Source: Acidobacteriaceae bacterium (GTDB taxonomy: Bacteria; Acidobacteriota; Terriglobia; Terriglobales; Acidobacteriaceae). From it: a DNA stretch of 17,349 bases. Shown here in pieces: positions 4,201-17,349 of the stretch. The stretch is from assembly GCA_030040175.1 (NCBI GenBank), contig JASHUF010000112.1, positions 1 to 17,349 on the forward strand, written 5' to 3'. The notes under the pieces are model-generated. The model did no database searches and was not told where the DNA came from. It saw only the letters and a program-made list of their open reading frames with translations. Both the position numbers and the translations under genes were made by a program. Positions within the stretch are counted from its first letter, which is position 1, and each line of letters opens with the position of its first letter.

Positions 4201-4297
4201 CATCCTGAGCGAAGATCGGCCGCAGCGCTCGGGGTCCCCACGGACAGGTCTTCGTCCGTGGGGTGAGCGGACGACCGGAGTCGAACGACCTGCATTT
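4201..4297. repeat. CATCCTGAGC...AGTCGAACGACCT repeat interrupted by an AGGTCTTC hairpin
   Basis: The outer repeat begins CATCCTGAGCGAAG at 4201 and resumes as CGGAGTCGAACGACCTG. A related uninterrupted copy is at 8915-8960. The insert is a hairpin: CCCCACGGAC (4236-4245), loop AGGTCTTC (4246-4253), GTCCGTGGGG (4254-4263), a perfect 10-bp stem. It fills most of the 248-bp gap between the HAD and aminotransferase genes. The rest of that gap shows no gene. Confidence 0.7.
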
Positions 4298-4325
4298 GCT
4301 TCATCCCTTTCAGAAGAACGTCAAA

Positions 4326-5603
4326 ATGCATTTCTCCCAGCGCACGAATTGGAACACGGAGGAAACCGCGCTCGCCCGCGCCCACCGCCAGCGTCTCGCC
4401 GCCGGCCTGCCCCTCGCCGATCTCACCGCCTCCAATCCCACCCGCTGCGGATTCGCCTACCCTGCGAACCTGCTCGACGCCCTCCGCGATCCCCGCGCCC
4501 TCGACTACGATCCCCAGCCCCGCGGCAGCCTCGCCGCGCGCCAGGCCGTCTGCGCCTACTACGCCGCCCGCGGCGCAGCCGTCGATCCGGATCAGATCAT
4601 CCTCACCACCAGCACCAGCGAGGCCTACAGCTATCTCTTCCGCCTGCTCCTGAATCCAGGCGAAGAAATCCTCGTCCCTCAGCCCGGCTATCCGCTCTTC
4701 GACTTCCTCGCCGACCTCGACGATGTGCGCCTCAAACCCGCGCCGCTGGTTTACGCCCACGGCTGGCAGATCGACCCCGAAGGCTTTCGGCGCGCCCTTA
4801 CACCCAAGACCCGCGCCCTCGTCCTCGTCCATCCCAACAACCCCACCGGCCACTTCATCAAGCCCTGGGAGGTCGAGGAGCTGGCCCGCCTTTGCCGTGA
4901 GCACGCGCTCGCCCTCATCGTCGACGAGGTCTTCCTCGACTACCCGATGATTGGGAACGAGGGATCAAGGGACCGGGAGAACAAGAAAACAGGGAGCAAG
5001 GGAGCAGGGGAGCGAGGGGGTAACAAGGTCCGCACCTTCGCCTCCGGATTCGACGGCCTCCTCGCCGGCGTCCCCGTCTTCGTCGTCAGCGGTCTGAGCA
5101 AGATCGCCGGCCTGCCGCAGATGAAGGCCGCGTGGATCGCGGTGACTGGCCCGGTCCAAGACCAGGAAAAAGCCCTCGCCCGCCTCGAGATCGTCGCCGA
5201 TACCTTCCTCTCCATGAACGCGCCCATCCAGTGCGCCCTGCCGGCCTGGCTCGAAGGCGGGTCCGCAATCCAGCAACAGATCCGGGAGCGCGTCTCCGCC
5301 AACCTCGCCGCGCTCGATGCGGAACTCGCCGGCATCCCGGCAACCGAGCGCCTCGCCCAGCGTCTCGATGTTGAGGGCGGCTGGTACGCCGTGCTGCGCA
5401 TTCCCGCGTTCGCGCCCGGCGAGGCCACGGTTCTGGCCCTCCTGGAGCGCGGCGTCTGCGTCCATCCCGGTTACTTTTTCGGCCTTCCGGATTCCGGCTG
5501 GCTCGTCCTCAGCCTGCTCCCGCCACTCGCTGAATTCCGCGCCGGCGTAAGAGGTCTGGTTGACTATTTGCACAAGAATCAGCGCAGTAATATTACTGGG
5601 TAA
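4326..5603 (+). CDS. Fold-type I PLP-dependent aminotransferase carrying an in-frame repeat insertion
   Basis: A 425-residue class I/II aminotransferase. Landmarks are LTASNPTRCGF near the N-terminus, TTSTSEAYSYLF, PQPGYPLFD, the cofactor loop HPNNPTG (about 170-176), VDEVFLDY with the Asp expected to pair with the PLP ring nitrogen (Asp200), and SGLSKIAGLPQMKAAW, where Lys259 should form the Schiff base. The substrate is not evident, although the family works on amino acids such as alanine or aspartate. The ATG at 4326 follows a weak AGAAG and puts FSQRTNWN at the N-terminus. Residues about 210-235, between DEVFLDY and the lysine motif, are a Gly/Arg/Lys/Glu-rich stretch encoded by a purine-rich dispersed repeat. 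Removing it leaves a normal loop length. The active-site residues are intact, so the enzyme may still work. Confidence 0.9.
   Translation: MHFSQRTNWNTEETALARAHRQRLAAGLPLADLTASNPTRCGFAYPANLLDALRDPRALDYDPQPRGSLAARQAVCAYYAARGAAVDPDQIILTTSTSEAYSYLFRLLLNPGEEILVPQPGYPLFDFLADLDDVRLKPAPLVYAHGWQIDPEGFRRALTPKTRALVLVHPNNPTGHFIKPWEVEELARLCREHALALIVDEVFLDYPMIGNEGSRDRENKKTGSKGAGERGGNKVRTFASGFDGLLAGVPVFVVSGLSKIAGLPQMKAAWIAVTGPVQDQEKALARLEIVADTFLSMNAPIQCALPAWLEGGSAIQQQIRERVSANLAALDAELAGIPATERLAQRLDVEGGWYAVLRIPAFAPGEATVLALLERGVCVHPGYFFGLPDSGWLVLSLLPPLAEFRAGVRGLVDYLHKNQRSNITG
4951..5027 (+). repeat. Purine-rich GGGAACGAGGGA-type repeat inside the aminotransferase gene
   Basis: The tract starts GGGAACGAGGGATCAAGG and continues almost without pyrimidines to GGGGGTAAC. 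It resembles the intergenic tracts at 7327-7376 (plus) and 16801-16864 (minus), which share GGGAAC(G/A)AGGGA-type phrasing. The frame is preserved and no stop is created. Confidence 0.7.
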
Positions 5604-6305: not shown

Positions 6306-6366
6306 GATTCCGATTCTAGAACCGGTTGCATACATGGCGTTGTAAAAGGGCCCGGCTTCCCGGGGC

Positions 6367-6394
6367 CCCCAGCGACAGGTCTTCGTCGCTGGGG
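6367..6394. repeat. AGGTCTTC-loop hairpin
   Basis: CCCCAGCGAC, loop AGGTCTTC, GTCGCTGGGG: a perfect 10-bp stem. Relative to the copy at 4236-4263, two stem pairs are changed on both arms while the loop is identical. Confidence 0.75.
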
Positions 6395-6439
6395 TGGCTT
6401 GAGCCGGGCCGCAAAGGCCGCATCAACGTTGGGGCTTTA

Positions 6440-6551
6440 CGGCATTTTCTGAGTTACTGTGTCCTTTTCATTTCCTCATAAGGTCGCCGCTCCCTGTTGG
6501 TCGCGTCGACTCTGCCTTCCGTCTTCGGGATACAGCTACTCAGAAAATGCG
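6440..6551 (+). mobile_element. 112-bp MITE-like element, copy A
   Basis: Begins CGGCATTTTCTGAGTTACTG and ends CAGCTACTCAGAAAATGCG, imperfect terminal inverted repeats of about 20-25 bp. It is flanked by TTA at 6437-6439 and 6552-6554. Without the element and one TTA the site reads GGGGCTTTAGCCCC, which is exactly the unoccupied sequence (minus strand) at 16647-16660. It has no coding capacity for a transposase. It is 98% identical (two mismatches) to copy B in the opposite orientation. Confidence 0.88.
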
Positions 6552-6617
6552 TTAGCCCCTGAGGGACCCTACCCAACCGCCTGAGGCCATGGATGCAACC
6601 AACCCTAGTGCCCGGGT

Positions 6618-6721: not shown

Positions 6722-7327
6722 ATGGCGGTTACACGCAGGCAAAAAGAGATTCTCGACTTCCTGGAAGCATTTGTGGCGCGCAATGGCTATTCGCCCTCGT
6801 TTGAGGAGATTGCGCGCGGTATGGGGCTCAAGAGCCTGGCCACGGTACACAAGCACGTGACCAACCTTGAGAAGAAGGGCATGCTCGACCGCGTGCACAA
6901 CCGCAGCCGGTCCATTGATCTGCTGCCTCCCGGCGCGCGCACCCGCTCCAGCGCCAAGCTCCCCCTCGCGGGCCGCATCGCCGCCGGCCTGCCCGTCGAG
7001 CAGATGGAGACCCCCGAAACCATCTCCCTCCACGACGTGGTCGGCAACCGCGACGTCTTCGCCCTCGAAGTCCGCGGCGACTCCATGCGCGACGAGCACA
7101 TCATCAACGGCGACTACGTCCTCGTGGAGCGCACCAAGGTCGCGCGCCAGGGCGAGATCGTCGTCGCCCTCGTCCACGGCAGTGAGACCACTCTCAAGCG
7201 CTTCTTCTCCGAGGGCAACGTCGTGCGCCTGCAACCGGCCAATGTGGAGATGGAGCCCATCTACGTCCCCGCCGCCCAGGTCGCCATCCAGGGCCGCGTC
7301 CTCGGCGTCCTGCGCAAGTACCGTTAG
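6722..7327 (+). CDS. lexA: SOS response repressor/autoprotease LexA
   Basis: 201 residues, typical length. Residues 1-68 form the winged helix-turn-helix DNA-binding domain (NGYSPSFEEIARGMGLKSLATVHKHVTNLEKKGML). The self-cleavage site is Ala83-Gly84 (LPLAGRIAAG). The catalytic dyad is Ser121 (VRGDSMRDEHI) and Lys159 (ETTLKRF). LexA represses DNA-damage genes until RecA filaments trigger its autocleavage. The ATG has no Shine-Dalgarno, and TATAAT ends 6 nt upstream, so the mRNA is probably leaderless. The recognition helix does not by itself tell the operator. The gene stands alone, bracketed by inverted copies of a 112-bp mobile element (6440-6551 and 7453-7564). A purine-rich repeat begins right after its stop codon. 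Confidence 0.97.
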   Translation: MAVTRRQKEILDFLEAFVARNGYSPSFEEIARGMGLKSLATVHKHVTNLEKKGMLDRVHNRSRSIDLLPPGARTRSSAKLPLAGRIAAGLPVEQMETPETISLHDVVGNRDVFALEVRGDSMRDEHIINGDYVLVERTKVARQGEIVVALVHGSETTLKRFFSEGNVVRLQPANVEMEPIYVPAAQVAIQGRVLGVLRKYR

Positions 7328-7396: not shown

Positions 7397-7438
7397 GGGT
7401 GCCCCAGGTCTGGATTTTCAGACCTGGGAAAGCACGAA
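7397..7438. repeat. GGGTGCCCC-hairpin element
   Basis: GGGTGCCCCA start (7397-7406). A perfect 10-bp stem CCCAGGTCTG / CAGACCTGGG (7403-7412, 7419-7428) has a 6-nt loop. The end is AAAGCACGAA. It could act as a transcript-ending hairpin for lexA, although no T-run follows. Confidence 0.7.
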
Positions 7439-7452
7439 CGCCAACCCGCTAA

Positions 7453-7564
7453 CGCATTTTCTGAGTAGCTGTATCCCGAAGACGGAAGGCAGAGTCGACG
7501 CGACCAACAGGGAGCGGCGACCTTACGAGGACATGAAAAGGACACAGTAACTCAGAAAATGCCG
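7453..7564 (-). mobile_element. 112-bp MITE-like element, copy B (inverted relative to copy A)
   Basis: Begins CGCATTTTCTGAGTAGCTG and ends CAGTAACTCAGAAAATGCCG. It is flanked by TAA at 7450-7452 and 7565-7567, the same 3-bp duplication as copy A read in this orientation. It equals the reverse complement of copy A except for two substitutions near 7526 and 7532. It separates lexA from nagA. Confidence 0.88.
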
Positions 7565-7626
7565 TAAGTGCCCGTTCTAACTCCGCTCACTCCGCTGGCA
7601 CCGCTAACTCCGCTGTCTGCTCCCCC

Positions 7627-10611: not shown

Positions 10612-11994
10612 TTACCTGCCCGCATCGAGTCCATCATCGCGCCCGCCATCGCGCAGCGTCCCGGAAAGAATATTCAGGCTGCCGTCGTTCTTCGGCGGCG
10701 TCAAGCCCAGCATGTGCGCCATCCATGGATAGAGATTCACATTCTCGAACGGCGCCACCGTTTTGCCGGCCACAATATCCGGCCCCGCCGCGAAGAAGCT
10801 CGCCTTCATCTCCGGCACAACGCGCGGATCGAATCCGTGCATCCCCGCCGGGGGCTTGCTGTCTCCATCGGCGGGCGCATGCGCGCGAACGGCGTAAGGC
10901 CCTGTGGCCACAATCACCGGATCGCCCGCGCGCGGATTCGCGTTGTAGTGCAATTCGGCAGGCACGTTCCTGAGCCGGTACACCATGAACTGCGAAGTGG
11001 CGCGCTTGAGCTCTTCGTATACCCGCGCGCGATCGTCTTCGCTCTCCGCGTAGAGCAGCGCGCCCTCGGTCTCGAATCCTTTGAGATCCGCGAACTGGTC
11101 GAGCGTGATCCAGCCGCCCTCCGGCCGCACCGTGCCGTGATCGCTCACCACCACCAGGTCGATGGGCAATCCGGTCGCGTCCAGCGCCGCTTTCAGCTTG
11201 CCCACCAGCGCATCCATTTTCAGCTCCGCCGCGCGCGTCTCCGGCGCGTCCGGCCCGTGCTCGTGCCCTTCACGATCCGGCTCCGAATAATAGATCGCGA
11301 TGAAATGCGGCCGCTCCTCGGCGGGCAGCCGCAACAGCGCCGCCGCATCGTCGATCCGCGCCTGCTCTCCCTGCCCGCTCGTCTCCGTCTTCTCGTCGAA
11401 GTGCGCGTACCACGTGGGCCGTTCGCCGGCAATCTCCGCCTCCGCGCCCGGCCACAACAGGCATGCCGTGCGCATGCCCCTGCTTTCGGCCAGGCTCCAG
11501 ATGGGCACGCCCGCATACCACGAGCCGTCGCTCACATCCTGCGCATCGCTCATCGAGAAGTGCGCTTTGCGCGCGGGATCGTAAAAATGGTTGGCCACAA
11601 TGCCGTGATGCTCCGGATACAGCCCGGTGATCATGGTCAGGTGATTGGGAAAGGTGACCGATGGGTAGCTCGGCAGCATGCCTTCGGGCGCCCACACGCC
11701 TTGCCTGCCCAGGGCGAGCAGGTGCGTCGCGTGGTCGCGCCGCGCGTAGTCCCACCGGAACCCATCGAGCGAAACCAGCACCACGTAATGCTGCGCTTCG
11801 GCCCACGCGGAATTCGGCCCGTGATCCAGGTGCGTGAGCGGCAGCGCAGGATTAAGCCCCCCCTGCGCGGAGGCCGCAGCAGCCGGCAGAGCCAGCAGCA
11901 GAGCCAGCGCAGCACGGCGGGCGGGCTCTTGAAAGCGTGCCCGCACGCCGCGGATTGTGCGCGCCGCCGCTCGCCGTTCCCTCGGAGAATCCAT
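10612..11994 (-). CDS. Secreted NPP-type phosphodiesterase/nucleotide pyrophosphatase (alkaline phosphatase superfamily)
   Basis: 460 residues. A basic N-terminus and the hydrophobic run ALALLLALPAAAASA (29-43) form a signal peptide with cleavage near ASA-QGG, so the enzyme should act in the periplasm or outside. The catalytic domain shows the di-zinc set of the NPP family: Asp77 in VVLVSLDGFR, nucleophile Thr114 and Asn117 in PSYPSVTFPNH, Asp240 and His244 in YSEPDREGHEHGP, Asp285-His286 in VVSDHG and His386 in GMHGFDP. These enzymes split phosphodiester or pyrophosphate bonds of nucleotides, dinucleotides or lipids. The substrate here is open. I used the ATG at 11992-11994. The longer frame runs into a GGGTGCCCC repeat that cannot be a natural N-terminus. 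It is the middle gene of the minus-strand cluster. Confidence 0.9.
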   Translation of the reverse strand: MDSPRERRAAARTIRGVRARFQEPARRAALALLLALPAAAASAQGGLNPALPLTHLDHGPNSAWAEAQHYVVLVSLDGFRWDYARRDHATHLLALGRQGVWAPEGMLPSYPSVTFPNHLTMITGLYPEHHGIVANHFYDPARKAHFSMSDAQDVSDGSWYAGVPIWSLAESRGMRTACLLWPGAEAEIAGERPTWYAHFDEKTETSGQGEQARIDDAAALLRLPAEERPHFIAIYYSEPDREGHEHGPDAPETRAAELKMDALVGKLKAALDATGLPIDLVVVSDHGTVRPEGGWITLDQFADLKGFETEGALLYAESEDDRARVYEELKRATSQFMVYRLRNVPAELHYNANPRAGDPVIVATGPYAVRAHAPADGDSKPPAGMHGFDPRVVPEMKASFFAAGPDIVAGKTVAPFENVNLYPWMAHMLGLTPPKNDGSLNILSGTLRDGGRDDGLDAGR

Positions 11995-12041
11995 CCGCAC
12001 CAGCTTATCGCACGCAGCCGGCCCGGATTGAGCACGAACAT

Positions 12042-12084
12042 GGGTGCCCCAGGTCCCGCTTTCGGGACCGGCGAAACCACGAAC
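12042..12084. repeat. GGGTGCCCC-hairpin element
   Basis: GGGTGCCCCA start, stem GGTCCCG / CGGGACC (12052-12058, 12063-12069) with loop CTTT, and end AAACCACGAAC. It lies in the 120-bp gap between the two secreted phosphoesterase genes. Confidence 0.68.
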
Positions 12085-12114
12085 TCCCACCGGACGCTCT
12101 CCACCAGATCTGCG

Positions 12115-15375: not shown

Positions 15376-16584
15376 TCAGGCAGACAGGCGGGCCAAACCC
15401 TTTTGCGCCAGGTCGGCAACCGCTCTGGCCAGGGTACGCGAAGCATTCAGTGACTCGGGGCGCTCCAATCGTATCCCAAGTTTCGCCGCGTAGCCGCGAA
15501 ACCCTCTGTCCACATCGAAAAGGATCTCCACGTGATCGCAGAGGAATCCGATGGGCTGGAGCAGGAGCGCCGTCACGCCCTCGCGCGCCAACCCATCCAG
15601 CGTCTGTTCCACAGTGGGGCCAATCCACTCGCCGCCGCTCGCCCCCTGGCTCTGGAAGGCGAAGCGCCAGAAGGGGATCTCCGGCACGCGCGCAGCCACC
15701 AGCTCGGCGGTGTGCCGCGCCTCCTCGGCATACGGATCGACGCCCCGGCCCGGCCAATGCGGCTCTCCCCCTCCGCCTTGACCAGGGTGCCCCACCCCTT
15801 CTGGAGCCGGTTGCCCCATCCTGGCCGCGTCTTTGTCTTTGCGGCCAGGGTGGGAAACAGAATCCTGCTGCTGCTCGGCAACCGGTTCCACCGTCCGCCT
15901 CGGCACGCTGTGCGCGGTCATCAACACCGGTACCGGCTGGCCGGTTTCTGCGGTCAGCTTCACCCATGCCGGCCGCAGCCGCTCCGCAAAAGCCTCGATG
16001 AGCAGCGGGTGCCGCGCCCAGCCCTCGGTAAAATCGATGCGCAGTCCATGCGCCTCGGCTTCGACCGCGCGCCGGTAGAGCCCCACGCTGGTGCGCGAGT
16101 TCTGCGGCGCCATGCAGACGACCGCCGCCTCTTCCACTTCATCGGCACGCATCTGCTTCACCACATCGGCAATGTACGGCTTCCAGTTGCGCATGCCCGC
16201 GTACACGCGCACGCGCTCATCCCCACTCGGGTGCCCCATCCTCAACACGGGGTCGGGGTCCCCGCGGACAGGTCCTCGTCCGTGGGGTGACTGAGCCTTT
16301 AGGGTGGGATTCGGGCACCCCATCCTGACGACGTCTTTCTCGTCAGTGTGGAAATCGGATTGTGCGTCTCCCGCCCCGTTCAACTCCTTCTCCACCAGCC
16401 GCGCCTGCTCCAGCGTGATCTCAGTCAGCGGGCTCTTGCCGATCAGCGCGTAGCGGTGCTGAATCTCTTCGATCAGGTGCGGAGACACAGGCCGGCCGCT
16501 CACCACGTTGCGCAGGTACTCCGGCACCTGCTCCACCGTCTCCGGCGTTCCATGCGCCAGCAATAACACCGCCTGTTTGGCCAT
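15376..16584 (-). CDS. hemH: Ferrochelatase with two in-frame repeat-derived insertions
   Basis: 402 residues, against about 310-330 for ordinary bacterial ferrochelatases, which insert iron into a porphyrin late in haem synthesis. The parts align with B. subtilis HemH from memory. They are LLLAHGTPETVEQVPEYL, HRYALIGKSPLTEITLEQA, VYAGMRNWKPYI, LMTAHSVPRRT with the catalytic His225, FAFQSQGASGGEWIGP, and PIGFLCDHVEILFD with Glu353. Two extra stretches, about residues 72-123 and 236-281, fall at positions where B. subtilis HemH has short loops. They are encoded by the palindromic repeats at 16216-16371 and 15742-15879, and both contain an RMG(C/H/Q)P peptide motif. The catalytic residues are intact. 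The start at 16582-16584 has GAGGGA close upstream. It lies 239 bp after hemE on the same strand. Confidence 0.93.
   Translation of the reverse strand: MAKQAVLLLAHGTPETVEQVPEYLRNVVSGRPVSPHLIEEIQHRYALIGKSPLTEITLEQARLVEKELNGAGDAQSDFHTDEKDVVRMGCPNPTLKAQSPHGRGPVRGDPDPVLRMGHPSGDERVRVYAGMRNWKPYIADVVKQMRADEVEEAAVVCMAPQNSRTSVGLYRRAVEAEAHGLRIDFTEGWARHPLLIEAFAERLRPAWVKLTAETGQPVPVLMTAHSVPRRTVEPVAEQQQDSVSHPGRKDKDAARMGQPAPEGVGHPGQGGGGEPHWPGRGVDPYAEEARHTAELVAARVPEIPFWRFAFQSQGASGGEWIGPTVEQTLDGLAREGVTALLLQPIGFLCDHVEILFDVDRGFRGYAAKLGIRLERPESLNASRTLARAVADLAQKGLARLSA
15785..15860. repeat. GGGTGCCCC-hairpin element inside hemH (insertion 2)
   Basis: GGGTGCCCCA at 15785-15794. The stem CCCATCCTGGCCGC / GCGGCCAGGGTGGG (15815-15828, 15841-15854) is 14 bp with one G-T wobble, and the 12-nt loop contains GTCTTT twice. 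On the gene strand it is read as KDKDAARMGQP and flanking residues without a stop. Confidence 0.75.
16229..16356. repeat. Repeat cluster inside hemH (insertion 1): two GTGCCCC-type units plus an AGGTCCTC hairpin
   Basis: GGGTGCCCCATCC (16229-16241) opens the first unit. A hairpin CCCCGCGGAC, loop AGGTCCTC, GTCCGTGGGG (16260-16287) is nested in it. A second unit GGGCACCCCATCC (16313-16325) is followed by stem CTGACGA / TCGTCAG with loop CGTCTTTC. The gene strand reads DEKDVVRMGCP and VLRMGHP from these units. Confidence 0.72.
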
Positions 16585-16605: not shown

Positions 16606-16713
16606 GGTTGCATCAATGGATTAAGGCTATGAAGAACATTCCCTCAGGGGCTAAAGCCCCAATGTTTATGCGGCCCTCGCGGCCCGGCTAAAGCCGGGCC
16701 CTTGTTACAAAAC
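16606..16713 (-). repeat. Repeat related to the 6.3-6.6 kb composite, without its two insertions
   Basis: On the plus strand it starts GGTTGCATCAATGG (16606-16619). It then has the tight hairpins GGGGCTAAAGCCCC (16647-16660) and GGCCCGGCTAAAGCCGGGCC (16681-16700) and ends near TTGTTACAAAA. Read on the minus strand it matches the body of the element at 6324-6600 and preserves the two unoccupied insertion points. Only one terminal repeat is present. It fills much of the hemE-hemH gap. Confidence 0.7.
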
Positions 16714-16800: not shown

Positions 16801-16864
16801 TCCCTGACCCCGGTCTCTACTCTCTACTCCCTATTCCCTACTCCCTCGTTCCCTCGTTCCCTGT
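16801..16864 (-). repeat. Purine-rich repeat overlapping the hemE 3' end
   Basis: On the minus strand, AGGGAACGAGGGAACGAGGG continues as GAGTAGGGAATAGGGAGTAG and GAGAGTAGAGACC. It belongs to the family seen at 4951-5027 and 7327-7376. The hemE stop codon (TAG, 16824-16826) lies inside it. Confidence 0.7.
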
Positions 16865-17349
16865 ATGCGTGCACCATCCTCACCACCGCCTGCACGTTTT
16901 CGACCGGCGTCCCCGGCGCAATGCCGTGGCCCAGGTTAAAAATGTGTCCGGGCCTTCCGCCCGCCGCGCGCAGAATCTCCTTCACGCGCAGTTCCAGGAT
17001 CTCCACCGGCGCAAACAGCGTAATGGGATCGAGATTGCCCTGCACCGCGCAACCGTGCCCCACCGCACGCCAGGCCACGTCCAGCGGCTGGCGCCAGTCC
17101 AGTCCGATCACGTCGGCGCCCGTCGCCGCCATCTGCTCCAGCAGGCCCGCCGTCTCCACGCCGAAGTAAATCACCGGCACGCCCATCTGTTGTACGGCGC
17201 GGACAAGCCGCTTCGAGGCCTCGAACGCGTAGGCGCGGTAATCGGCCAGCGCAAGCGAGCCGACCCAGCTATCGAAGATCTGAATGACATCGGCCCCGGC
17301 CTGCACCTGAAGACGGCAATACTCGGTAAGCACGGCAACCAGCTTGTCC
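16824..17349 (-). CDS. hemE: Uroporphyrinogen decarboxylase, C-terminal part (cut by window edge)
   Basis: The frame is open to the right edge and gives about 174 C-terminal residues. HemE removes the four acetate carboxyls of uroporphyrinogen III to give coproporphyrinogen III. Family stretches are GADVIQIFDSWVGSLA, FGVETAGLLEQM, TGADVIGLDWRQPLD, AVQGNLDPITLFAP and the C-terminal HIFNLGHGIAPGTPVENV. The normal enzyme ends soon after the helix VRMVHAYRE. Here the last dozen residues (RGNEGVGNRE) and the TAG stop are encoded by a purine-rich dispersed repeat that has replaced the natural end. The catalytic N-terminal residues are outside the window. It is upstream of hemH on the same strand, consistent with a haem gene cluster. 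Confidence 0.95.
   Translation of the reverse strand, partial: DKLVAVLTEYCRLQVQAGADVIQIFDSWVGSLALADYRAYAFEASKRLVRAVQQMGVPVIYFGVETAGLLEQMAATGADVIGLDWRQPLDVAWRAVGHGCAVQGNLDPITLFAPVEILELRVKEILRAAGGRPGHIFNLGHGIAPGTPVENVQAVVRMVHAYRERGNEGVGNRE

Follow-up and report, generated by a model that had tools for sequence, protein, structure and literature searches.

Palindromic repeats lie in frame at two loops of the ferrochelatase of a soil acidobacterium

The window that we analyzed, a stretch of 17,349 nucleotides from an Acidobacteriaceae bacterium (GCA_030040175.1, contig JASHUF010000112.1), carries hemH as a single stop-free frame encoding 402 residues (Table 1). The product matches the Pfam ferrochelatase family PF00762 (E 5e-65) and the NCBIfam model TIGR00109 (142.7 bits; cut-off 124.6), scoring below the cut-offs of two further NCBIfam ferrochelatase models, and its predicted structure resembles that of Bacillus subtilis HemH with a TMt of 0.84. 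The residues that the earlier note had named as a retained catalytic pair, His225 and Glu353, do align with His183 and Glu264 of the B. subtilis chain (numbering counted by hand), and the protein keeps 106 of the 107 columns that are invariant among 31 relatives, the exception being F222M. Profile, fold and catalytic His and Glu all identify the product as HemH. We found no second PF00762 gene in the host's metagenome-assembled genome, which is fragmented (562 contigs) and 80% complete. A hemE-like fragment (16824-17333) precedes hemH, and elsewhere in the window a lexA-like frame (6722-7327; both names come from sequence alone) is flanked by inverted arms at 6437-6556 and 7448-7567, 120 nt each and 98% complementary, each with its own 23-nt inverted-repeat pair. 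In addition, a repeat with GGCTAAAGCC-type palindromes occurs at 6396-6439 and at 16652-16695, the latter between the hemE-like fragment and hemH. Rfam gave no matches in the window at gathering scores.

Table 1. Features of the window, with the hemH inserts and the repeat elements that compose them
Feature	Position	Strand	Basis
hemH, ferrochelatase, 402 aa, two in-frame repeat inserts	15376..16584	-	PF00762, TIGR00109, fold
Insert 1, about 50 aa, residues about 73-122 (approximate edges): A hairpin, then second A with B inside	16219..16368	-	alignment of 88 distinct HemH; pLDDT mostly <50
First A element of insert 1: stem CTGACGA/TCGTCAG, end GGATGGGGTGCCC, peptide HTDEKDVVRMGCP	16310..16352	-	alignment with L111, which has one A insert here
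Second A element of insert 1 (CCCACCCT ... AGGATGGGGCACCC), B nested inside	16226..16312	-	motif search
B element, core CACGGACGAGGACCTGTCCG, within second A element of insert 1	16253..16290	-	repeat search
Insert 2, about 32 aa, residues about 240-271 (approximate edges)	15772..15867	-	alignment; pLDDT
A element of insert 2: CCCACCCTGGCCGC-AAAGACAAAGAC-GCGGCCAGGATGGGGC, peptide SHPGRKDKDAARMGQP	15806..15861	-	motif; hairpin z -3.52
B-type copy outside hemH, 5' edge of frame 4263-5603	4229..4266	-	repeat and motif search
Diverged B-type copy outside hemH, 82% to 4229 copy, same orientation	6360..6397	-	repeat search
C-type element GGGTGCCCCAGGTC...GACCTGGG	7397..7446	+	repeat and motif search
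C-type element, near 5' end of minus-strand frame 10612-12090	12042..12091	+	repeat and motif search

The extra length of the enzyme falls at two places, between residues 76 and 80 (site 1) and between residues 189 and 194 (site 2) of B. subtilis HemH. The earlier note had described both places as short loops in that protein, and the gains of about 50 and 32 residues come near the excess of roughly 80 that was claimed from the letters; the observation of two in-frame insertions is confirmed. The inserts are built from GGGTGCCCC-tagged hairpins (family A) and one nested AGGTCCTC element (family B); they encode the peptide motifs KDVVRMGCP, RMGHP and KDAARMGQP, and the frame stays open through both of them. 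When folded as single-stranded DNA, the hairpin at site 2 exceeds shuffled sequences in stability (z -3.52), as does, weakly, the first hairpin of insert 1 (z -1.89); neither the B element (z -0.53) nor the latter half of insert 1 (z 0.24) does, which makes hairpin formation a less firm part of the observation. In the AlphaFold model, computed with 32 sequences, pLDDT falls below 50 at residues 75-82, 84-115, 117-120, 251-253 and 255-280, and in ten-residue blocks it ranges from 36 to 55 within the inserts and from 67 to 98 in the core. The inserts thus appear in the model as low-confidence, unstructured loops; low pLDDT is weaker evidence than a solved structure, because it is expected wherever few homologues have the residues.

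A protein search found HemH in 58 of 60 relatives, with no match in G003 and G059 and only a weak one in G011. For alignment we took frames from 114 loci (80 from GTDB genomes, 34 others) and our own, making 115 sequences, 88 of them distinct, among which some end at contig ends and several loci represent the same genome twice. The site-1 loop is 8 residues long in 58 of the 88 and 58 residues long in ours; the site-2 loop has a mode of 18 residues (33 of 88) and measures 50 in ours. Site 1 is filled in only five distinct sequences, our own, L005 (palsa_249), L111 (JOPF027), L145 (JOPF159) and L170 (fen_409), and site 2 is filled by an element in four, our own, L111, L145 and L004 (SbA5), so the extra segments are no conserved domain of the relatives. 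All nine inserts, from six species, are free of stops and frameshifts, and the filled site-1 loops span 29-58 residues depending on the species. Four distant HemH proteins have unrelated site-2 loops of 48-53 residues, and this site is naturally variable.

The make-up of the inserts also differs between species. The relative L113 has neither insert, L111 has one A element per site and L145 two elements per site, and our own site 1 holds an A element followed by a second A that encloses B; in L005, a B element is read in another frame than in ours and is followed by EMGHP. Viewed across living species, this series (no insert, one, two, nested) suggests growth by accretion. A quick tree wanted three changes at site 1 and two at site 2, as repeated independent insertion would give. 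A tree constrained to group our sequence with L111, L145 and L170 scores higher (p-AU 0.81), as does one that groups it with L111, L145 and L004 (p-AU 0.69), and the five-row site-1 group is not rejected (p-AU 0.27). Because the constrained trees allow one origin per site, we do not claim recurrence; each site may have been filled once, with losses after. One further sequence in the set, L144 (JARLJI010000177.1), comes from a record titled Rhodoferax sp. although its HemH groups with this acidobacterial genus, probably through a binning or labelling error.

The hemH core is under purifying selection, and the inserts are relaxed yet in frame. Between our sequence and L111, pN/pS is 0.15 in the core (292 codons), 0.58 in insert 1 (29 codons) and 0.51 in insert 2 (42 codons), a difference between core and inserts with a Fisher p of 2.6e-5 on rounded pooled counts. 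The comparison with L145, which ends at a contig edge, gives 0.16 for the core (222 codons) and 0.62 and 0.66 for the inserts; the insert alignments behind all of these ratios are short and partly uncertain.

The elements in hemH belong to families dispersed through the genome. Family A has the form CCCACCCT-stem-loop-stem-AGGATGGGGCACCC, and AGGATGGGGCACCC occurs in 54 copies with at most one mismatch in 3.37 Mb, against none for the reversed control. The B core occurs in 23 copies with at most three mismatches (control, 1), and family C, GGGTGCCCCAGGTC...GACCTGGG, in 75 matches (control, 0). B lies inside A or C in several places, and by eye the printed copies of A and C carry GGGTGCCCC or a close variant as their end tag. 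Of 47 genomes from the genus, 41 contain the exact A motif; beyond the genus 2 of 32 do, with one match in each of those two. The A stems pair despite differing in their letters: in the 41 of 54 sites that could be scored, the other 13 having no usable CCCACC-like box within 45 nt, 209 of 246 pairs match, compared with a mean of 142 (sd 6, maximum 164) over 2000 re-optimised shuffles. As expected of REP-like elements, the repeats are short palindromes in many copies; B is repeated, but its hairpin is not stable beyond shuffles.

Insertion into genes is genome-wide, and HemH is not special in this respect. We examined all 54 A sites, all 23 B sites and 30 C loci out of the 75 matches, and ran 50 frames through Pfam, of which 26 had a match and 24 had none. 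A gene was counted if the element interrupts a domain or separates two domains of a single protein; by this rule at least 18 genes recognised by Pfam have A, B or C in frame, namely 17 of the 26 matched frames and hemH, and 20 of the 77 A and B sites fall in them. They encode, with names finer than the Pfam family assigned from the sequences, HemH, ValRS, ArgS, a GlmM-like phosphoglucomutase, an IspE-like GHMP kinase, PriA, UvrC, an AMP-binding enzyme, an Lhr-like DEAD helicase, UvrD, DNA polymerase III delta (HolA), an MtnA-like IF-2B family protein, a HutH-like aromatic amino acid lyase, glycine dehydrogenase, an ABC ATPase, prolyl oligopeptidase, PNP phosphorylase and YbeY. Nine matched frames were left out, their element lying before the first domain and often probably in a 5' leader: MacB-like L048, polyprenyl synthetase L062, M28 peptidase L105, FeS assembly L053, ParA-like L094, cytochrome c L308, GH16 L307, the MocA-like minus-strand frame of L071, and the S1 frame L059, which ends at a contig end. 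In the prolyl oligopeptidase frame (L289, G000:C13), two C elements face opposite ways and both are in frame.

Five of the 18 genes were compared with relatives, hemH as above and four others against 13 relatives each, and the other 13 are placed by Pfam match and repeat sequence. The 34-residue insert of ValRS is absent in 9 of the 13, with a shorter insert containing GAPGP in G031, a cut sequence in G013 and only a distant synthetase in G005 and G034. The place of the B peptide in phosphoglucomutase is unfilled in 12 of the 13 and holds a different insert in G020. The IspE loop and the ArgS loop at the A site vary in length among relatives anyway, which makes these two cases weaker. ArgS has a further insert of 27-34 residues, absent in all 13 relatives, that is built of other palindromes, GGCACGACTTCAGTCGTGCC and GGGGCTTTAGCCCC; a palindrome like the GGCTAAAGCC type forms part of an in-frame ArgS insert (L064, residues about 217-251). 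With mobile-looking hairpins sitting inside their genes without breaking the frame, these enzymes of the soil bacterium therefore probably carry extra floppy loops derived from selfish DNA.

PF01797 matches three places in the genome, all Y1 transposases, and one of them is a REP-associated tyrosine transposase (RAYT; NF047646, 100.9 bits, cut-off 80). It is the only one of the three flanked by like elements in opposite orientation, being bracketed by A-like hairpins with their tags outward; the base of their stems reads CACCTT/AAGGTGGG, compared with CATCCT or CACCCT/AGGATGG in the hemH copies. A scan of eight Y1-transposase loci for A, B and C gave matches only in L252, the locus of this RAYT, with none near the other two transposases of this genome or at five loci of relatives chosen from among the best scores. 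Among 30 loci homologous to the RAYT, 26 of them from the genus, the tag matches on both sides in 2 and on one side in 9, or in 13 of 60 flanks, where 0.01 is expected per flank (flanks of 260 bp, one mismatch; background of 17 matches in 446,612 bp); the other 19 loci have no match in either flank under these settings. In the 13 such loci that were printed, we saw by eye at least one hairpin with GGGTGCCCC or a close tag in each: C-type in L259, L260, L262, L264 (variant tag) and L268, A-type in L258, L275, L277 and L278, and hairpins with other stems in L265, L266, L267 and L270. The transposase genes of L266, L267 and L270 adjoin a hairpin of the form GTCCTAGC...GCTAGGGCGGG, which shares the tag and has a different stem type. 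At some loci (L268, L274) the flanking copies share one orientation, and B has no transposase beside it among the loci scanned. These neighborhoods tie A and C, and not B, to RAYT genes of the genus, and the REP-associated transposase is the likely mobiliser of the repeats.

We consider it highly probable that the extra HemH segments originated as REP-like mobile palindromes that inserted in frame and are tolerated as disordered loops. The palindromes would have entered loop-coding DNA of hemH in an ancestor of the lineage, probably moved by an HUH/Y1 RAYT through recognition of single-stranded hairpins with the GGGTGCCCC tag. Insertions would survive where they kept the frame (a length that is a multiple of three, no stop) and fell in exposed loops, others being lost; a resident element would then be translated as a disordered loop, nearly neutral for the enzyme, drifting under relaxed selection and growing as further elements land in or beside it, as in an A followed by an A with B inside. 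The same process would have marked many housekeeping genes of the genome, and in HemH the products may be tolerated surface peptides. Points that count against this reading are the natural variability of site 2, the many homologous transposase loci with no tag match in either flank, the other stem base and the like-oriented copies noted above, and B, which has neither a neighboring transposase nor a hairpin stable beyond shuffles. An improbable alternative, whatever the origin of the segments, is that selection maintains them as lineage-specific functional loops, for instance for partner binding or regulation. Their presence in frame in three related species (our own, L111 and L145) and an insert pN/pS still below 1 fit that idea, but the same sequences stand in dozens of unrelated places, the site-1 loops differ in length by species, pLDDT is mostly below 50, and the inserts have 3-4 times the pN/pS of the core.

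Skipped elements occur in some mitochondria, and with at least the site-2 element folding well, the hairpins might be bypassed in translation or cut from the RNA to leave an enzyme of normal length. We think this very unlikely, given that all nine HemH inserts are in frame and stop-free, which skipping would not require; the open inserts of the other 17 genes add no independent support here, because in-frame copies were collected as open frames and broken copies would be missed. An assembly or binning artefact would be conceivable in so fragmented and incomplete a genome, where short repeats invite misjoins, yet the assemblies JOPF027, JOPF159, fen_409, palsa_249 and SbA5 also carry inserts at these hemH sites, with substitutions of their own, and we give this explanation hardly any weight. 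Equally little speaks for a decaying hemH with the inserts as signs of loss: another copy might be missed in an incomplete genome, but the pseudogene replaced by another copy that the earlier note had envisaged finds no counterpart in a gene with no other copy found in the 80%-complete genome, a core pN/pS of about 0.15, a stop-free frame, nearly all invariant columns kept, an unchanged catalytic pair and a matching fold.

Copies of A and of B occur in several reading frames. A is stop-free in all six frames in 21 of 41 scored sites, compared with 21% for mononucleotide shuffles and 23% for random segments of the genome, and B in 17 of 23, compared with 29% for random segments; these figures are confounded by the shared ancestry of the copies, and base composition and stem symmetry may suffice for them. 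With openness beyond expectation, a still-active transposase would keep supplying translatable loops to enzymes of the whole genus from repeats adapted to life inside genes. We regard this as a doubtful extension of the mobile-palindrome explanation; if true, gene-adapted repeats would be a standing source of new protein segments. More immediately, our findings extend coding palindromes to free-living Acidobacteria, link two families (A and C) to transposase genes within the genus, and provide in one enzyme a natural series from no insert through one and two elements to a nested one. Annotators should be aware that stretches of the RMGHP, TDRSSSVG or GAPGP type in proteins of Acidobacteria may be repeats instead of domains.

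In-frame REPs have already been published for other bacteria. In the account of the GTAG/CGTC superfamilies by Di Nocera et al. 2013, Opitutus terrae, Thauera, Xanthomonas and others carry such elements in frame in genes for repair proteins, helicases and tRNA synthetases, as single or grouped palindromes linked to RAYTs, and clusters encode 43-82 residues (PMC3733652); an acidobacterial passage there deals with TIR-flanked transposases of Koribacter and not with coding repeats. The Solibacter genome paper reports many short repeats in Acidobacteria, with no coding ones in its passages on them (PMC3174227). Our limited literature search returned no report of acidobacterial coding palindromes or of a GGGTGCCCC-tagged set, which is weak evidence that this set is new.

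The closest behavioral parallel, drawn in the earlier note, is with the Rickettsia palindromic elements (Ogata et al. 2000, 2002), several palindrome families that interrupt, in frame, numerous unrelated genes within a single genus (PMC10969869, PMC3733652). The acidobacterial palindromes likewise form several families in frame in unrelated genes (18 by Pfam, five of them compared with relatives) and by analogy seem to work in the same way; they differ in their free-living soil hosts, the GGGTGCCCC end tag, the RAYT with like hairpins and the several reading frames of A and B. The parallel stands for behavior and not for class: with a RAYT as likely mobiliser, the repeats look like REP-like elements, not Rickettsia palindromic elements proper, and we claim no membership. 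In-frame coding palindromes of housekeeping genes in Wolbachia and Methanocaldococcus jannaschii (PMC2996958), summarised beside the Rickettsia ones (PMC10969869/PMC2996958), share the habit in other hosts, a likeness by description only. As in the intragenic GTAG/CGTC REPs, small RAYT-linked palindromes sit in helicases, tRNA synthetases and repair genes, but the acidobacterial hairpins carry the tag GGGTGCCCC and not the GTAG or CGTC of those superfamilies. The RAYT itself belongs to the REP-associated family and has hairpins on both sides, as in the TnpA-REP branch of the IS200/IS605-like HUH group, whose usual guide sequence is GTAG/GTGG (PMC6006769); here, GGGTGCCCC stands in its place.
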